In this document: positions 43,117 through 50,241 of the stretch, one piece after another
Layout: every line of letters starts with the position of its first letter
Position numbering within the stretch: position 1 is the stretch's first letter
Assembly: GCF_014837295.1 (NCBI RefSeq)
Contig: NZ_JACYHB010000019.1
Location: forward strand, 1 to 51,848
Source: Cellulosimicrobium arenosum
GTDB lineage: Bacteria > Actinomycetota > Actinomycetes > Actinomycetales > Cellulomonadaceae
Direction of reading: 5' to 3'
DNA: 51,848 bases
Translations under genes and position numbers: made by a program
The notes under the pieces: model-generated
Databases searched by the model: none
What the model was told of the DNA's origin: nothing
What the model saw: only the letters and a program-made list of their open reading frames with translations

Positions 43117-44046
43117 TCAGCCCTCCAGCGCGGGAACGACGTCGGGGTACTCCTCGAGCCACGCGTCGACACCGGCTGCCGGGTCGTCGGGGTGCTGGTT
43201 GACGACCTGGTCCTCCAGCGCGCCGTACTGCTCGTCGTCCAGCGCGATCTGCCCGATCCAGTCGGCGACGTCCGGGTACTCCTCGGAGATGCCCTCGGTG
43301 CCGAGGAAGTGCAGACCCTCTGCCTCTCCGAGCGCACCCTTCGGGTCCTCGAGATCCTTCACCGGGTAGGCCGAGTTCGCCCAGAACGGACGCCACAGCG
43401 TGACGAGGATGTCCTCCTGGTTCTCGGTGGCCTTCTCCAGCTCGGTGAGCATGGCCGTCGTCGAGGACTCCACGAGCTCGTAGCCTGCCTCGTCGAGACC
43501 GTAGTCGGGGATGACCGCGTCCTTGGTGATGTCAGTCAGCCCGGCGCCCGGCTCGATGCCGACGATCTTGCCGTCGAACATGTCGACGTTGTCCGCGAGC
43601 TCGTCGATCGAGTCGATGTCGGTGTACTCCGGCACCGCGAAGGTCAGCTTCGCGTTGTCGTAGTAGGTGTCGAGGTCCTCGATCTGGTCGCCGTACTGGT
43701 CCATGTACTTCGCGTGGGTGACCTCGGGCCAGGCCGACGGGTAGATGTCGACGTCGCCCCTGGACAGGGCCGTGTAGAGCAGCCCGGCGTCGCTGATCTC
43801 CTCGTGCTCGACCGTGTAGCCGGCCTCGTCGAGGAAGTGGTCCAGCAGGTAGGCGGTGCTCAGGCCGTCGGTCCACGACGGGATGTAGCCGAGCGTGATG
43901 GTCTTGTCGCCACCACCGTCGCCGTCTCCGCCGTCGCCGGCGGTGTCGTCCCCGTCGCTGCAGGCGGCGAGCGTGAGGCCGAGCGCCGCGGTGGCGGCCA
44001 CGGCCACGCCCTGACGCATCCGACGGTTCGTTCGGAGGGTACTCAT
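43117..44046 (-). CDS. Glycine betaine ABC transporter substrate-binding lipoprotein
   Basis: This 309-residue lipoprotein has a signal with lipobox LAAC, a Gly/Asp-rich linker and an OpuAC-type binding domain (ITLGYIPSWTDGLSTAYLLD, then GDVDIYPSAWPEVTHAKYMD). Aromatic residues in PSAWPE and LWRPFWANS fit the cation-pi box that holds quaternary ammonium groups. GAAGGA precedes the ATG. It is the third gene of an ATPase-permease-binding protein operon for osmoprotectant uptake. Whether the ligand is betaine, proline betaine or choline is not decided. Confidence 0.92.
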   Translation of the reverse strand: MSTLRTNRRMRQGVAVAATAALGLTLAACSDGDDTAGDGGDGDGGGDKTITLGYIPSWTDGLSTAYLLDHFLDEAGYTVEHEEISDAGLLYTALSRGDVDIYPSAWPEVTHAKYMDQYGDQIEDLDTYYDNAKLTFAVPEYTDIDSIDELADNVDMFDGKIVGIEPGAGLTDITKDAVIPDYGLDEAGYELVESSTTAMLTELEKATENQEDILVTLWRPFWANSAYPVKDLEDPKGALGEAEGLHFLGTEGISEEYPDVADWIGQIALDDEQYGALEDQVVNQHPDDPAAGVDAWLEEYPDVVPALEG

Positions 44047-44097
44047 GGGTGATTCCTTCCCTAGGGATGTCTTGCAGAAGGTCTGGACGGGGCGACG

Positions 44098-45012
44098 TCA
44101 GCCGACGTCGACCAGCACGGTCTCGGCCGCGGCGCGACGGCTGCGCACCATCGCGACGAGCGAACGTCCCGTGGGCTGGCCGATGGCACCGGTGAGCCGG
44201 TCCAGGAAGATGGCGAGGATGACGACCGCGAGCCCGGCCTCGAACCCGAGCGGGACGTCGAGGCGGGAGATCGAGGTCACGACCTCCTGGCCGAGGCCGC
44301 CGGCCCCGACGAGCCCGGCGATGACCGACATGGACAGCGCGAGCATGATGACCTGGTTGACCCCGGCCATGATGGTCGGCAGTCCGAGCGGGAGCTGGAT
44401 GCCCCACAGGATCTGGCCGCTGGTGCCGCCGAACGCCTCGCCCGCCTCGACCGTCTCCGAGTCGACCTGCCGGATGCCGAGCTCGGTGAGCCGCACGCCC
44501 GGGGGGAGCGCGAAGATGATCGTGGCGCAGACGCCGGGGACGACGCCGATGCCGAAGAAGATGACCACGGGCACCAGGTAGACGAACCCCGGCATGGTCT
44601 GCATGAAGTCGAGCACCGGACGGACCGCCGCGCTGAACGTGTCGTTGCGCGCGGCCAGGATGCCCACCGGGACGGCGATGAGGAGCGCGATGAGCGCGGC
44701 CACGATGACCAGCCCCAGGGTCTCCATCGCCGGTTCCCACATGTCCATGCTGACGACGAGGAGCGTGCCGAGGAGCGTGAAGAGCCCGAAGCCCCACGAG
44801 CGGACGAGCAGGGCGAGAAGGGTGAACAGCACGACCATGACCAGCGCCGGCAACGCCAGGAGCGTGTCGGTGACCGTCTCGACGAGGAACAGCAGGCTGG
44901 TGCTGATGGCGTCGAGCACGGGCGAGAGGTTGTCGTAGATCCAGTCGATGGCGCTCTTGACGCCGTCGCCGATGTGCAGGTCGGGGAGGACGGAATCGGT
45001 GCTGGTGGACAT
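44098..45012 (-). CDS. Glycine betaine/proline ABC transporter permease
   Basis: The 304-residue permease has five or six transmembrane helices and the EAA-type loop EAGEAFGGTSGQILWGIQLP that contacts the ATPase. Other parts are AARNDTFSAAVRPVLDFMQT and LSMSVIAGLVGAGGLGQEVV, typical of ProW/OpuAB proteins. The start overlaps the ATPase stop (TGATG). The soluble N-terminal 35 residues resemble those of ProW-like proteins. Confidence 0.95.
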   Translation of the reverse strand: MSTSTDSVLPDLHIGDGVKSAIDWIYDNLSPVLDAISTSLLFLVETVTDTLLALPALVMVVLFTLLALLVRSWGFGLFTLLGTLLVVSMDMWEPAMETLGLVIVAALIALLIAVPVGILAARNDTFSAAVRPVLDFMQTMPGFVYLVPVVIFFGIGVVPGVCATIIFALPPGVRLTELGIRQVDSETVEAGEAFGGTSGQILWGIQLPLGLPTIMAGVNQVIMLALSMSVIAGLVGAGGLGQEVVTSISRLDVPLGFEAGLAVVILAIFLDRLTGAIGQPTGRSLVAMVRSRRAAAETVLVDVG

Positions 45013-46385
45013 CAGACGGCTCCTGCCTGGTCGAGAGCGGACTGGCCGTCGGCGGCCACCGGGGCGTCCTCGACCGCGTTCGGGTCCGGGACCTCCTCGA
45101 CGGCGTCCGGGACGGAGAGCGCGCTCAGCAGCGTCACCCGGGGGATGACGCCCTGGAGGCGCCCCTGCTCGTCGACCACCACGAGGGGGGCCCGGCTGGA
45201 CGCCGCGTCGGCGAACAGCTCGACGAGCGGCGTGTCCGGCGTGACGCGGACGATCTCCGTGCTCACCGGCAGCCGGTCGACACCGCGCTTCACGGCGTCG
45301 GCGACGGCCTCCTCCCAGACCACGCCCTCGACCGTGCGGTTTCGACCTGTCACCAGCAGCGCGGGGACCTGGTTCTCGCGCATGAGCTTGTGCGCTGCCT
45401 TCGGGCCGGTCTCCGCACCGACGACCGCGACCGGGCGCTCCATGACAGCGCTAGCCGTCAGCACCCGGCTCCGGTCGACGTCCGCGACGAACTGGGCGAC
45501 GTAGTCGTTGGCGGGCTCGTTGAGGATCTGCTCCGCGGTGCCCACCTGGACGATCCGGCCGTCGCGCATCATCGCGATGCGGTCGCCCAGTCGCATGGCC
45601 TCGTTGAGGTCGTGGGTGATGAACAAGATCGTCTTGCCGAGCTCCGCCTGCAGCTCCAGGAGCTGGTCCTGCATCTCCTTGCGGATCAGCGGGTCCAGCG
45701 CGCTGAACGCCTCGTCCATCAGCAGGACGTCGGTGCCCGCGGCGAGCGCACGGGCGAGCCCGACGCGCTGCCGCATGCCGCCCGAGAGCTCCGACGGCAT
45801 GGAGCCGCCCCACCCCTTCAGGCCGACCATTCCCAGCGCCTCGTCTGCGCGCTGCTCGCGGTCGGCCTTCGACACGCCGCGCAGCGCGAGCGCGTACGCC
45901 GCGTTCTCGCCCACGGTGCGGTGCGGCAGCAGGGCGAAGTGCTGGAACACCATGCTCACCTTGGTGCGACGGACCTCACGCAGCTGCGCCGTGGACAGGT
46001 GCGTGACGTCCTGCCCGTCGATGCTGATGCTGCCGGCCGTCGGCTCCAGGAGCCCGTTCACCGTGCGGATCAGGGTGGACTTGCCGGAACCGGAGAGCCC
46101 CATCACCACGAAGATCTCGCCCGGGGCCACCTCGAAGGTGGCGTCGATGACCGCGGCGGTCAGACCTTCACGGCGCAGCTTCTCGCGGTCCGCACCCTCC
46201 TTGAGCATCCGGACACCGCGTTGGGGGCGACGACCGAAGATCTTGGTCAAGCCGTTTGCCTCGATGGCTGGCACAATTCTCCCGTGCTCGGGGACTGGGA
46301 CATGCGCCGGGGGTGCGCTCGCTGGGGCACCCGGGGCACGGACGCTCGACTGCTCGTGGCGCTGAGGCCCGGAGTCGGTCGTCAC
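45012..46385 (-). CDS. Glycine betaine/proline ABC transporter ATP-binding protein with CBS domains
   Basis: This is a 457-residue ProV/OpuAA-type ATPase. Walker A is GLSGSGKS (96-103), signature LSGGMRQRVGLARAL, Walker B LLMDEAFSALDPL, and the C-terminal half carries CBS domains that sense ionic strength in related transporters. GTG 46385 has GGAGGA 5 nt upstream. A second candidate, GTG 46274 (GGGAG upstream), would give 420 residues and a more usual N terminus; the extra 37 residues are Pro/Ala-rich. Osmotic induction, perhaps through MtrAB, is inference. Confidence 0.93.
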   Translation of the reverse strand: MTTDSGPQRHEQSSVRAPGAPASAPPAHVPVPEHGRIVPAIEANGLTKIFGRRPQRGVRMLKEGADREKLRREGLTAAVIDATFEVAPGEIFVVMGLSGSGKSTLIRTVNGLLEPTAGSISIDGQDVTHLSTAQLREVRRTKVSMVFQHFALLPHRTVGENAAYALALRGVSKADREQRADEALGMVGLKGWGGSMPSELSGGMRQRVGLARALAAGTDVLLMDEAFSALDPLIRKEMQDQLLELQAELGKTILFITHDLNEAMRLGDRIAMMRDGRIVQVGTAEQILNEPANDYVAQFVADVDRSRVLTASAVMERPVAVVGAETGPKAAHKLMRENQVPALLVTGRNRTVEGVVWEEAVADAVKRGVDRLPVSTEIVRVTPDTPLVELFADAASSRAPLVVVDEQGRLQGVIPRVTLLSALSVPDAVEEVPDPNAVEDAPVAADGQSALDQAGAV

Positions 46386-46624
46386 CTACTTCCTCCGACG
46401 GTATGACCCTGCTTTCGCAACGATCCGCGCAAAAGGGGCAAAGCGCAGCAACATCTTTACCATGCTGTGACACTCGGTATCACGCGGGCCACCGACCGCG
46501 GGTCCGGGTCGCGCCCTTTCGGGCAGAGCTCTCCGTCAGGTGTTCCCGTGGTGCCGCGCCGGACCTACGGTCGGACGAAGGCGTCTGCCGTGCGCCGCTC
46601 TTCACCCGCGACGGGAGGTCCGAC

Positions 46625-48190
46625 GTGTCGGAGGAAGCCGCACCCAGGCCTGCCCGGACCCCGCCGGCTCGACGGGCCGCGCGCGCAGAGATGGTCCGCA
46701 CTCCCCCGGCGACCACCCCGGGCGCCATCCGGACGGTCGACGCCGCACGGGTCGCGTCGGCGGCTCCCTCCGCGCCGTTGCACCTCGCCTCGATGCCGGC
46801 GCTCCAGCGGCAGGCAGGGAACGCTGCCGTGACGAGCAGGATCGCCGTCCAGCGAGACGTCGCGTCCCTGCCCGCCGGGAAGCAGTACCCGGCCACCCGG
46901 GGGACGGTCGTGGCGATCCGCGCGCTGCTCTCGGCGTCGGTGCGGACCATCGCGGACGTTGATCAGCGGGCCGCGGCGGCGGAGCGGCAGGCCGCGGACG
47001 ACAAGACGCTGATCCACCCCATCATGGTCGCCGGCGCCTCGCTGCACAGCGGCAGGCCACCCGTCGGGGCGATCACGACGTGGGCAGAGGTCGATGCCGC
47101 GCTCTTCGCCTTCTGCACCGAGGTCTCGGCGCGAGCGACGGGTCTCGGGCGGGAAGCGATCCGGGCGGGCGACGCGCCCGCAGCCTCCGTGTTCCTGCGC
47201 ACCGCCGACCGTGCGCACGACCTCGCCGCGTCCCATCGGCAGGCCGCACCCGCGCAGCCACCGGCTCTCACCCGTGCGGCGCCGACGCACGGGAAGTCGA
47301 CGCTCGCGACGGCCACGACGGTGCTCGACGCGGGCAACAACGCGCTGGCGCTGCCCGTCACGTCGACCGGTCTCGCGCTGGCGCCGCCGCTCGCCCTGGC
47401 CCCGACGGGGGCGGTGGCGGTCGGCGCGACCGTCGCAGGCACCGGCGGGGGCGGGCTCGGCATCCTGTTCGGACTGATCGGCGTCGGGATGGGAGCGAAG
47501 GCAACGTACCGGGGCCGGACGTCCTGGAAGGAGCTGCGGGACCTCAGCGCGCGCCTCGGCGGTCTGGACGACGACGTGCGCAGCCACCTCATGGCGGGGA
47601 TCGCCGATCACGGTGCCGCCCAGAAGCGGCGCAAGATGTGGGGCGGCCTGGGCGCGATGTCGCTGGGGAGCGTCGCCATGATCGCCGGCGCGCTCTCGAT
47701 CGCCGCCGCGCTCACCGCCGGCATCACCGCCGGCACCCTGGGCATCGGTGCCGCGGTGATCGGGATCGCGGCCGCGATCTTCGGGCTCGGCCTGCTGATC
47801 GGGCGGTGGGTGCACAAGCGCAACAAGCGCAAGAAGTGGCAGGACACGGCCGACGCCGGGGCAGCGAAGCTCGTGTCGTCGGCGGGTCAGACCAAGGACG
47901 CCGTGCTGCGCACCGAGGCCCGGGCGACGATCGCCGCCCTCGGCCTGGACCCGACAGCGGACGCCGGGCAGCTGACGGCCGACATCGCCCGTGTGCTGCA
48001 CACCGAGGTGACGTCGGGGCGCAAGCTCATCGCCTTCCAGGTGCTGCACTACCTCACCTCGGGTGTGCCGAGCGAGTCGGTCCAGGCCGGGCTGGTCCTC
48101 GAGGCGCTGCACGTGGACCCGGCGAAGGTGCTCACGCTCTCACGGGACGCAGCCGTCGGGGAGATCGCGCGCAAGCTCACGCACGGCTGA
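46625..48190 (+). CDS. DUF4157/eCIS-associated-motif protein with hydrophobic segments
   Basis: This 521-residue protein has a disordered Arg/Pro/Ala N terminus and then the motif LQRQAGNAAV (60-69) followed by RIAVQRD. I know this pattern from N termini of actinobacterial DUF4157 proteins and cargo of extracellular contractile injection systems. A helical region follows (90-210). Two glycine/alanine-rich hydrophobic stretches (about 245-291 and 341-393) lie before a basic patch KRNKRKKW and a helical C-terminal domain. There is no signal peptide. GTG 46625 has GGGAGG 6 nt upstream. No eCIS structural gene is in the window. The role is unknown; it could be a membrane-acting effector. Confidence 0.7.
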   Translation: MSEEAAPRPARTPPARRAARAEMVRTPPATTPGAIRTVDAARVASAAPSAPLHLASMPALQRQAGNAAVTSRIAVQRDVASLPAGKQYPATRGTVVAIRALLSASVRTIADVDQRAAAAERQAADDKTLIHPIMVAGASLHSGRPPVGAITTWAEVDAALFAFCTEVSARATGLGREAIRAGDAPAASVFLRTADRAHDLAASHRQAAPAQPPALTRAAPTHGKSTLATATTVLDAGNNALALPVTSTGLALAPPLALAPTGAVAVGATVAGTGGGGLGILFGLIGVGMGAKATYRGRTSWKELRDLSARLGGLDDDVRSHLMAGIADHGAAQKRRKMWGGLGAMSLGSVAMIAGALSIAAALTAGITAGTLGIGAAVIGIAAAIFGLGLLIGRWVHKRNKRKKWQDTADAGAAKLVSSAGQTKDAVLRTEARATIAALGLDPTADAGQLTADIARVLHTEVTSGRKLIAFQVLHYLTSGVPSESVQAGLVLEALHVDPAKVLTLSRDAAVGEIARKLTHG

Positions 48191-48276: not shown

Positions 48277-50241
48277 TCAGCCGTTCTTCGAGGGACGGTA
48301 GCCAGCGGCTCGAGCAGCCCCGGTGGTGGTGAAGCACTCCTCGGGCTTCGTCCGGTCGTACCAGCGCCCACCGGGGACGTGGTAGATCATGCTGCTGGCG
48401 TTGCCCTTGACACGAGCCCACGACGGGCAGTTCCACGTGCTCGCCGGCGACGTACGGCTCGGACGCGGCGCCGCCTTCACGGCCGCGGTCTTCGCGCTCG
48501 CGCGATACGCGGTCACGTACGTGGACCGCTTGCCCGTGACCGTGACCGTGATTCGCTTGCCCTTGTCACCCGACCTGACCTTGAAGGTGGACCTCGTGGC
48601 GCCGCTGACGGACCTGCCGTCCACCTTCCACTGGTACGAGAACAGGGGGGTCGGCGACCACGAGCCGGGCGATGCCTTCAGCGTCTTGCCTACCTGCACC
48701 GTCCCGCTGATCTTGGGAGCCGCGGTCCGGGCGAACTTCGTCGCGACAGCCACGGTCGAGCTGCTGGTGACGCTCCTCGTCGCGTAGCCCGTGGCCCGGC
48801 CCGTCACGGTGACAGTGATGCGCTTGGCGTGGTCGTTCTTCTTGAGCACGTATGTCGACTTCGTCGCGCCACTGATGCTCTTTCCGCCGGCCTTCCACCG
48901 GTACGAGACTGCACCCTTCGGCGCCCACGATCCGGCCGTGACCCGGAGCGTCGAACCCACCCTCGCGGTCCCGGTGATCTTCGGCGTAGGTGCCGAGAAC
49001 GTGCCCGCTGCCACGGCCTGGGTCGCGGCACTGGTGACCGAACGCGTCGTGTAGCCGACGGCCTTCCCCGTGACGGTGAGGGTGATCTTCTTGCCGTGCA
49101 GGCTCGACGGCACCGTGTACGTCGAATGCGTCGCGCCCTTGATCGCGGTGCCGTTCGCCCGCCACTGGTAGCTCACGCTCGGCTTGGGCGTCCAGGTACC
49201 CACCGATGCGGTCAGCTTCTTGCCCACCTGGGCCGTACCGGAGATCTTCGGGGTCGCCGCCGACAGCGCGCCCGCACCCACCGTCACGGTTGGGCTCGTC
49301 CTCTCGGCGTCGGGGTGGAAGGCCGCACTCCCGGTGACGATGACGCCGATCTCGTGACCCAGGTCGGCCGGCGCGGGCACGTAGGTGGGTCGGGTCGCAC
49401 CTGCGACGGCAGCTCCGTCACGGGTCCACCGATAGCTCAGCGTCGCCCCGTTCGACCAAGCTCCTGGTCCGGCGGTGAGGGTCGATCCAATCCGTGCTGA
49501 GCCCACGATCGTCGGCACGGCGCCGGACAGGACGCCGGTCACGGCCGCTGTCGGCGCGGAGGACTCGGTACGAGGAAGGTGGCTGCTCTCGCGCGAGGTG
49601 ACGGTCACGACGATCGCCGCACCCAAGTCTGCTGACGTCACTACGTACTCGGACGCATCGGCCCCCACGATCGGAGCGCCGTCGCGACTCCACTGGTACG
49701 ACAACGACCCCACGGGCAGCCAGGTGACCGATGCACGGAGCCGCTCACCGACGACCGCAAGACCGACGATCGCCGGCGCCGCCCCCTGGACGGCGCAACG
49801 CTCCACCACCGAGGTGGCGACCGTCGTGACCGTGGTGGGCTGCGCGCCCGGGTCCGGGACGGTGCCAGTGACCCGCGCGGAGAGAGAGGTACCGACGAGG
49901 TCGGGCCCGATCTCGAGCGTCTGACCCGACCTGCCGTCGAGCACCGAGGAGTCGGCGAACCACTCGTAGGACAGAGCCACGTCGTGCGGCTGCCACGAGC
50001 CCGGCACGACGCTCAGTGACTCGCCGACACAGGGCTGCCCCGCGATCGTCAACGGCTCGTTCGGCGCCTGGACGACCCTCGCCTCCGGGACTGCGATGTC
50101 CGCCCGGATACCCGCGGGAACGCGCGCGACACCCGCAGCCGGCAGCGCCGCCGTAGGGGCCAGCACGAGCGCGGCGAGGATGGTCAGCACCAGTGCGCGA
50201 TGGCCGGTCGCGGACGCGCGGGGAGATCGGGGGACGGACAT
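48277..50241 (-). CDS. Secreted six-repeat Ig-like protein with C-terminal sunset-like domain
   Basis: The 654-residue protein has a Sec signal peptide (ALVLTILAALVLAPTAALPA). Six Ig-like repeats of about 83-88 residues follow from about residue 58, each with P-x-I-x-G-x-x-x-V-G-x-x-L, SYQW and a closing VTVTG (for example SGTVQVGKTLKASPGSW and SYQWKVDGRSVSGATRST). Repeats 4-6 are most alike. The C terminus holds NCPSWARVKGNASSMIYHVP and WYDRTKPEECF, which I recall as the sunset domain of surface proteins. Likely a secreted or wall-associated adhesin or binding protein. GGAG precedes the ATG. Confidence 0.85.
   Translation of the reverse strand: MSVPRSPRASATGHRALVLTILAALVLAPTAALPAAGVARVPAGIRADIAVPEARVVQAPNEPLTIAGQPCVGESLSVVPGSWQPHDVALSYEWFADSSVLDGRSGQTLEIGPDLVGTSLSARVTGTVPDPGAQPTTVTTVATSVVERCAVQGAAPAIVGLAVVGERLRASVTWLPVGSLSYQWSRDGAPIVGADASEYVVTSADLGAAIVVTVTSRESSHLPRTESSAPTAAVTGVLSGAVPTIVGSARIGSTLTAGPGAWSNGATLSYRWTRDGAAVAGATRPTYVPAPADLGHEIGVIVTGSAAFHPDAERTSPTVTVGAGALSAATPKISGTAQVGKKLTASVGTWTPKPSVSYQWRANGTAIKGATHSTYTVPSSLHGKKITLTVTGKAVGYTTRSVTSAATQAVAAGTFSAPTPKITGTARVGSTLRVTAGSWAPKGAVSYRWKAGGKSISGATKSTYVLKKNDHAKRITVTVTGRATGYATRSVTSSSTVAVATKFARTAAPKISGTVQVGKTLKASPGSWSPTPLFSYQWKVDGRSVSGATRSTFKVRSGDKGKRITVTVTGKRSTYVTAYRASAKTAAVKAAPRPSRTSPASTWNCPSWARVKGNASSMIYHVPGGRWYDRTKPEECFTTTGAARAAGYRPSKNG

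Follow-up and report, generated by a model that had tools for sequence, protein, structure and literature searches.

How extracellular contractile injection systems (eCIS), one type of phage-tail-like injection machine, choose their cargo is an open question, and effectors have been sought either beside the eCIS operon or via the DUF4157 domain. The locus described here raises the question of whether a protein that has neither of these two features can be marked as cargo. It lies in a window of 51,848 nucleotides (the whole stretch of DNA that was analysed, contig C11 of the Cellulosimicrobium arenosum assembly) and encodes the 521-aa protein P0001 (46625..48190, forward strand), which has a GTG start codon preceded, 6 nt upstream, by the Shine-Dalgarno-like sequence GGGAGG (46613..46618, forward strand). 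The ORF is a sound, real gene: its frame is coding, as judged from the GC3-biased local GC content at the three codon positions (0.75/0.64/0.90), its GC content is 0.746 versus 0.735 for the window, and the DNA repeats within it are short, imperfect, GC-rich matches only. The gene is flanked on its 5' side by glycine-betaine-type ABC transporter genes on the opposite strand (43117-46385). On its 3' side, a gene on the reverse strand (48277-50241) encodes a probably secreted protein with several Ig-like repeats and no apparent connection to P0001. The free space amounts to ~240 bp upstream and 86 bp downstream, and thus no immunity gene stands beside P0001; nor does any eCIS gene adjoin it in the window. 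The flanking genes thereby bear out what a sequence-only reading of this DNA had stated about both kinds of neighbor.

P0001 is built from a leader, a short motif-bearing module and a long C-terminal part (all coordinates below are on the forward strand). The leader (residues 1-59, 46625..46801) is hydrophilic, basic and probably disordered, with a mean Kyte-Doolittle (KD) value of -0.38 over the first 50 residues, a net charge of +5 over residues 6-21, and a pLDDT of 29-41 over residues 1-60 (10-residue block means, single-sequence AlphaFold2). An aromatic residue among the first eight, which is given as an effector feature in the accessible text of PMC11297309, does not occur in P0001 (0 of eight). 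The leader is followed by the tag core LQRQAGNAAV (residues 60-69, 46802..46831), around which a helix is predicted with low confidence at residues 57-80 (single-sequence AlphaFold2), and by a second tag element, IAVQRD (residues 73-78, 46841..46858). The region between the tag and the hydrophobic stretches is helical. The sequence-only reading had described two long Gly/Ala hydrophobic stretches; using the KD scale with a 19-residue window, we found that the one at residues 338-398 (47636..47818) is strong, with a peak of 2.54, but that the Gly/Ala/Leu stretch at residues 240-295 (47342..47509) is weak and has to be regarded as marginal, because its peak reaches 1.57 only. The strong stretch comprises 61 residues, a length that would suffice for a two-helix membrane hairpin, and ends in a basic patch (residues 394-404, 47804..47836), as had been noticed before. 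The remainder is a helical C-terminal region (residues 405-521, 47837..48187) for which no relative was found. The single-sequence AlphaFold2 model is all-helical and of low confidence (mean pLDDT 49.3, pTM 0.27), and places helices at residues 344-365 and 372-438.

In agreement with the earlier statement that P0001 contains no known toxin domain, the protein matched no Pfam family above the cut-off, no NCBIfam family and no PHROGs family, and the Pfam scan detected no DUF4157/eCIS_core domain (PF13699). A CD20-like Pfam match (14.3 bits versus a cut-off of 27.9) and a match to a ZneA chain in the PDB (E 0.0047) were both put down to chance arising from hydrophobic composition. When the best candidates, up to 12 per genome, were scored in 120 other genomes of the family, 10 of which belong to the same genus, a depth at which a weak relative could escape, no relative of P0001 survived inspection. 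Two weak family matches were rejected upon reading of their ORFs: L004 is a membrane-transporter-like gene, and L005 an acyltransferase-like gene located amid housekeeping genes. Across 84,980 genomes, 494 + 251 peptide-pattern matches (exact 8-residue match required) were obtained, none of which was confirmed, and P0001 had no match in plasmids or, by tblastn, in phage records; likewise, its C-terminal half has no relative in the genomes, plasmids or phages searched. As far as these tools reach, P0001 thus appears to be a lineage-specific gene. Since no homologue was found, hydrophobicity is the sole guide to the function of the C-terminal half.

The search of the host genome for eCIS genes, which the sequence-only reading had proposed, was productive. 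One stretch of contig C6 (L006/L007, ~88-101 kb) encodes a sheath protein (PF04984), baseplate J, gp25, CIS_tube and two gp19/tail-tube proteins, while contig C32 (L008, ~167-172 kb) encodes an AAA+ ATPase with a winged-helix variant domain together with a DUF4157 protein, the only PF13699 match of the genome. The same stretch of C32 also contains a gene for a 383-aa protein with a variant of the tag, LQTGAGNSSV...AAVQRS. The host genome thus encodes eCIS parts on two contigs, as read from the genes themselves. A gene next to that for baseplate J (L006:7576-9540, reverse strand) combines a zinc ribbon with an NADase-translocation F5/8-type domain and may represent an accessory or cargo protein. 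In three genomes of the same genus (G065, G078, and G118), the DUF4157 and sheath genes are at most ~10 kb apart, and therefore the host strain perhaps has its eCIS split over two loci, or else a break in the assembly may separate the two. With the window on C11, the sheath on C6 and DUF4157 on C32, P0001 is beside neither and is unlinked to the eCIS; because the assembly consists of 33 contigs, this distance is a statement at the contig level. This arrangement agrees best with the option of unlinked cargo among those that the sequence-only reading had listed.

The motif is not a product of chance. In 20,000 shuffles of P0001, the pattern LQR..GN..V did not occur, and LQR..GN occurred once. 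A search of the whole genome with a DNA pattern for LQRxxGNx[AV], which also admits F for L and S for R, produced three forward matches, none in reverse and none with the pattern read backwards, and all three fall in proteins tagged near the N-terminus: P0001, the DUF4157 protein and L012. The tag of the latter, LQRVVGNGA...VTVQRD, has the same layout as that of P0001. The L012 gene (L012:4845-6203, forward strand) lies on contig C1 at ~342 kb, away from the eCIS contigs, and its product matches NAGPA (phosphodiester glycosidase) with 28.5 bits versus a cut-off of 25. Comparison of 47 tag windows, from which related copies were not thinned and in which the core columns are conserved by design of the search, revealed further preferences at positions for which we had not searched, namely L at -3 (27 windows), V at +9 (33), L at +12 (22), and either V or L at +13 (38). 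In P0001, the conserved core columns hold the residue most frequently seen there, and position -3 holds M instead of the commonest L. A [VLIMA]QR element is present no more than 50 residues downstream in 16 of 19 family matches and 9 of 14 class matches (GC3-supported frame, DUF4157-positive genomes). As aligned, the tag is a recurrent N-terminal module of the form L..LQRx[AV]GN.AV, after which VQR or LQR often appears.

Is this module associated with eCIS? Our family sample comprised 121 genomes including that of C. arenosum; PF13699 was found in 30 of them, the sheath, searched for in the family set only, in 32, and both in 28. The loose pattern is noisy in this sample (52 matches versus 38 when read backwards); 37 matches read LQR..GN, and the other 15, with F or S for L or R or with a stop, were dropped before counting. 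By reading, 20 of the 37 are tags, and 17 are non-tags, being out of frame or not N-terminally located (one each in G050, G119, G102, G115, G101, G058, G037, G047, G087, G111, G105, G012, G036, and G046, two in G108, and L044 of G016). Unfiltered, LQR..GN occurs anywhere in 11 of 30 DUF4157-positive and 13 of 91 negative genomes (p = 0.010); in a GC3-supported frame the counts are 9/30 versus 7/91 (p = 0.004), or 8/29 versus 7/91 with the own genome left out (p = 0.009). The narrower GC3-supported LQRx[AV]GN gives 8/30 versus 2/91 (p = 2e-4; 7/29 versus 2/91 without the own genome, p = 6e-4), and the two negative genomes, G102 and G115, share a match located close to where a frame of 196 codons ends. 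When [VLIMA]QR within 50 residues is also required, 6/30 positive and 0/91 negative genomes remain (p = 1.5e-4; 5/29 versus 0/91 without the own genome, p = 6e-4), the six genomes belonging to two genera only (g1 and g16) and, as related genomes, not being independent. By the tag pattern, 21 of the 30 DUF4157-positive family genomes are without the tag. In the genus of the window, the tag is present in all five PF13699-positive and none of six negative genomes (p = 0.002); in three of the five, tags are confined to the DUF4157 protein or its vicinity, and part of the association between tag and DUF4157 is indeed due to tags on the DUF4157 protein itself.

A second, class-wide sample of 157 genomes, in which the own genome is not included, was searched with the narrower pattern LQRx[AV]GNx[AV], for which we counted 31 matches versus 7 when read backwards (own genome included). 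The eCIS_core matches were divided into 21 strong (own genome included) and 13 weak ones, a split made post hoc once the class list was known, and genomes with weak matches were counted among the 137 negatives. With the own genome left out, any match at all occurs in 8 of 20 strong DUF4157 genomes versus 12 of 137 others (p = 8e-4); a GC3-supported match in 7/20 versus 1/137 (p = 1.4e-6), the one exception, G168, being mid-protein; and a GC3-supported match followed by QR in 6/20 versus 0/137 (p = 2e-6), or 6/20 versus 1/137 if the tagged protein of genome G137, discussed below, is counted in (p = 1.3e-5). If all 34 eCIS_core matches are taken as positive, the corresponding values without the own genome are 7/33 versus 1/124 for the GC3 filter (p = 7e-5), and 6/33 versus 0/124 for GC3 and QR (p = 6e-5; 1/124 with G137, p = 3e-4). 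The GC3, [AV] and QR filters were picked after inspection of the family matches, and the class set was counted later with the same filters. Three DUF4157-positive genomes of the class set (G130, G154, and G159) carry variants of the tag. Thus the tag goes with eCIS, in the sense of a statistical link, and the earlier suggestion that the motif is linked to these systems was upheld in that, after the frame and core filters, it is found mainly in DUF4157-positive genomes.

The earlier naming of the tag as a motif of DUF4157 was not supported, since the module lies upstream of this domain, outside the Pfam model, in one clade of DUF4157 proteins, and P0001 carries it without any DUF4157. In the DUF4157 protein of the host genome, the same tag is found 98 residues ahead of HExxH. 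Among the DUF4157 proteins in which our patterns picked up both elements, 18 have the first residue of the tag 89-132 residues ahead of HExxH, 13 of these at 94-98, and the distance is greater in L047 (265) and L077 (160). The tagged clade (L008, L050, L054, L055, L057-L059, L102, and L114) is characterized by SPVLDVV, YTVG and HELTHVVQ, and the untagged one (e.g., L095, L097, L104, L107, L108, and L110) by FT.G.D.YF; this HExxH-based classing leaves out L121 and, as having no pattern match, L096, L099, L100, L101, L103, L105, L106, L109, L111, L112, L113, L123, and L126, the last of which (G243:C19) carries eCIS_core according to Pfam.

Behind the tag, the C-terminus is swapped. We scanned 21 tagged proteins against Pfam and found no eCIS_core match in the sequence covered, which does not extend to the C-terminal ends of L071, L089, and L090, as these run past the end of their stretches. 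Four of the 21 contain another domain above the cut-off (NAGPA in L012, OmpA in L052, a Scabin-like domain in L132, and GT4-conflict in L134), 16 contain no domain above the cut-off, and L060 has an APOBEC-like deaminase match at its C-terminal end that stays just below it (24.5 versus 25). The Scabin-like domain of L132 (L132:3293-4258, forward strand) scores 88.7 bits; its namesake Scabin is an ADP-ribosyltransferase. An all-against-all BLASTP comparison (E 1e-3) of the parts downstream of the tag in 25 proteins, namely the 21 above plus L047, L093, the variant-tag protein L008m and its relative L057c, resulted in 21 groups: L008m/L057c, L060/L093/L090/L071, and 19 singletons including P0001. 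The second group consists of large tagged proteins that are mutually related downstream of the tag. L060 and L093 come from two different GTDB families and share two stretches of 72% and 82% identity, and, as both keep the tag, it is conserved in this one pair of close relatives across families. One tag on many unrelated, partly toxin-like C-termini resembles a delivery tag.

P0001 is not the only tagged gene located apart from the eCIS. By reading, tagged genes without DUF4157 that are distant from the DUF4157 gene occur in five family genomes (two in G000, one in G007, six in G016, one in G030, and two in G091) and three class genomes (two in G214, three in G243, and one in G273). Taken alone and with the own genome left out, such genes are present in 4/29 versus 0/91 family genomes (p = 0.003, by reading) and in 3/20 versus 1/137 class genomes (p = 0.007, G137 counted). 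In the single-contig genome G016 (loci L042-L050), six tagged genes without DUF4157 are spread over 4.8 Mb, each at least 470 kb from the eCIS, and in the likewise single-contig G214 the tagged genes without DUF4157 are at least 740 kb from the DUF4157 gene; since both genomes are single contigs, these distances are real. In the other genomes, the unlinked tagged genes are on different contigs from the DUF4157 gene. L042 of G016 also has strong hydrophobic stretches. For comparison, the accessible part of Danov 2024 (PMC11297309) places 88% of known effectors at most ten genes from the operon.

The exception is G137, which has no PF13699 match and encodes a tagged protein, LQRMAGNQAVSALVIQRQ (L130:4921-6030, reverse strand), that we judged genuine; it fails the GC3 filter (0.72/0.54/0.68) and is hence outside the 0/137 given above. 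Among the seven other ORFs of this 9-kb stretch, one has AAA-type domains (PF13401 and PF00004), one SH3_3 and one Septum_form, and none has a sheath, tube, baseplate or eCIS_core domain. The gene with the AAA domains (L130:502-2079) is located ~3 kb from the tagged gene. The eCIS may have been lost from G137, or the rule that links tag and eCIS may not be strict.

We consider it rather likely that P0001 is cargo of the eCIS encoded elsewhere in the same genome, loaded in trans via the shared tag; the N-terminal tag would probably mark this membrane-seeking protein as cargo even though its gene stands apart from the genes of the machine. The disordered leader and the LQRxAGNxAV...VQR module, the latter a putative short helix, would together serve as a loading or docking tag. 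Because the same module precedes DUF4157, P0001 and the DUF4157 protein probably meet one partner, for which the candidates are the AAA+ loading ATPase, by analogy with Pvc15 as presented in the available text of PMC11495950, the spike or baseplate, or the DUF4157 protein itself, which is tagged. Interactions of this kind have been looked at in related systems: the accessible portions of the respective papers report that Tme eluted together with proteins of the spike and the tube initiator (PMC11126660) and that Sle2 was assayed for binding to spike proteins (PMC13277306). After firing, the C-terminal half of P0001, with its hydrophobic stretch, basic patch and small helical domain, would embed itself in a membrane; the strong hydrophobic stretch suggests such a target, and, if P0001 is cargo, membrane action, deduced from hydrophobicity, would again be the somewhat better bet. 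The tag, the eCIS genes of the host genome, the joint occurrence of tag and DUF4157 and the exchange of C-termini downstream of the tag are observed directly; loading, firing, membrane insertion and effect are what we infer from these features.

Several other explanations were weighed. That the motif arose by chance in an unrelated membrane protein would agree with the failure to find homologues of P0001; it is very unlikely given the shuffles, in which LQR..GN..V was never produced, and the genome pattern count, and the commonest residues at the conserved core columns, the VQRD element and the layout shared with L012 all argue against it. The tag could also be a general actinobacterial helix for protein docking or oligomerization, with P0001 residing in the membrane and having no part in injection. 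A short motif can serve in more than one context, and the tagged protein of G137 exists without a PF13699 match, but the association of the tag with DUF4157-positive genomes in two samples and the few tagged proteins with toxin-like C-termini make this explanation improbable in our view. More remote still is a relationship to tape measures, with P0001 as a small effector, comparable to Sle1 of Streptomyces lividans or Tme of S. davawensis, that runs through the lumen of the tube and opens a pore in the membrane. As described in the accessible parts of the papers, Sle1 has a membrane-seeking part, a predicted membrane helical hairpin, without DUF4157, as P0001 does (PMC13277306), and in Tme, which unlike P0001 has DUF4157, hydrophobic regions are followed by a basic segment (PMC11126660). 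However, Sle1, Sle2 and Tme are, per these sources, cluster-encoded, coiled-coil or very long, and remotely related to tape measures, whereas P0001 is unlinked, beside neither the sheath nor the DUF4157 gene, has no match in PHROGs or, by tblastn, in phage records, and, at 521 aa, would make a short tape measure.

P0001 might instead never be fired and act as an accessory protein, like CisA of Streptomyces coelicolor, through which the eCIS is anchored to the cytoplasmic membrane, with the tag of P0001 bound to the particle. The two proteins have in common an N-terminus that is unstructured, in P0001 probably so, followed by a membrane segment, putative in P0001 (PMC12237407 for CisA, as far as its accessible text goes). 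According to the same text, CisA is encoded in the cluster, passes the membrane once and has a substrate-binding-like C-terminal domain, whereas P0001 is unlinked at the contig level; its hydrophobic stretch is longer, at 61 residues, and its tail small and, as modelled, helical. No match for P0001 was found in 10 genomes of the same genus, among them four other eCIS carriers, and some other tagged proteins resemble enzymes and toxins. We therefore judge a role like that of CisA to be unlikely, about on a par with the general docking helix, and prefer the reading of P0001 as cargo.

As cargo, P0001 would resemble known eCIS substrates in part. With the DUF4157/eCIS_core proteins and eCIS-associated toxins, as treated in the accessible text of Geller 2021 (PMC8213781) and Danov 2024 (PMC11297309), it shares the tag that precedes DUF4157 in one clade, the hydrophilic basic leader and the eCIS genes in the host genome; unlike those toxins, it lacks DUF4157, is not near the eCIS and has a C-terminus that matches no toxin family. 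Its leader is also reminiscent of the PVC/Afp signal peptides, 50-70 residue disordered leaders for loading by Pvc15 (PMC11495950, accessible text). The tag of P0001 differs from these signals, in that the available text of PMC11297309 and PMC11495950 names no motif of the LQRxxGN type; in what is accessible of them, Danov 2024 (PMC11297309) detected no specific conserved sequence in PVC/Afp signals, and Evans and Waterfield 2024 (PMC11495950) considered signal peptides groupable by sequence alignment. In the literature that we searched, which excludes bioRxiv, most subscription papers and supplements, we did not find a tag motif of the LQRxxGN type described.

Thus, with a slight preference over the contrary, we propose that LQRx[AV]GN.AV...VQR is a sequence-specific sorting tag of one actinobacterial eCIS clade, that the cargo genes of this clade may be located chromosome-wide, and that many orphan tagged proteins without DUF4157, P0001 included, would be undetected effectors. 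If this is true, a recognizable tag would make cargo findable anywhere in a genome and would account for proteins that belong to eCIS without having DUF4157, and P0001 would represent a membrane-acting cargo without a known relative.
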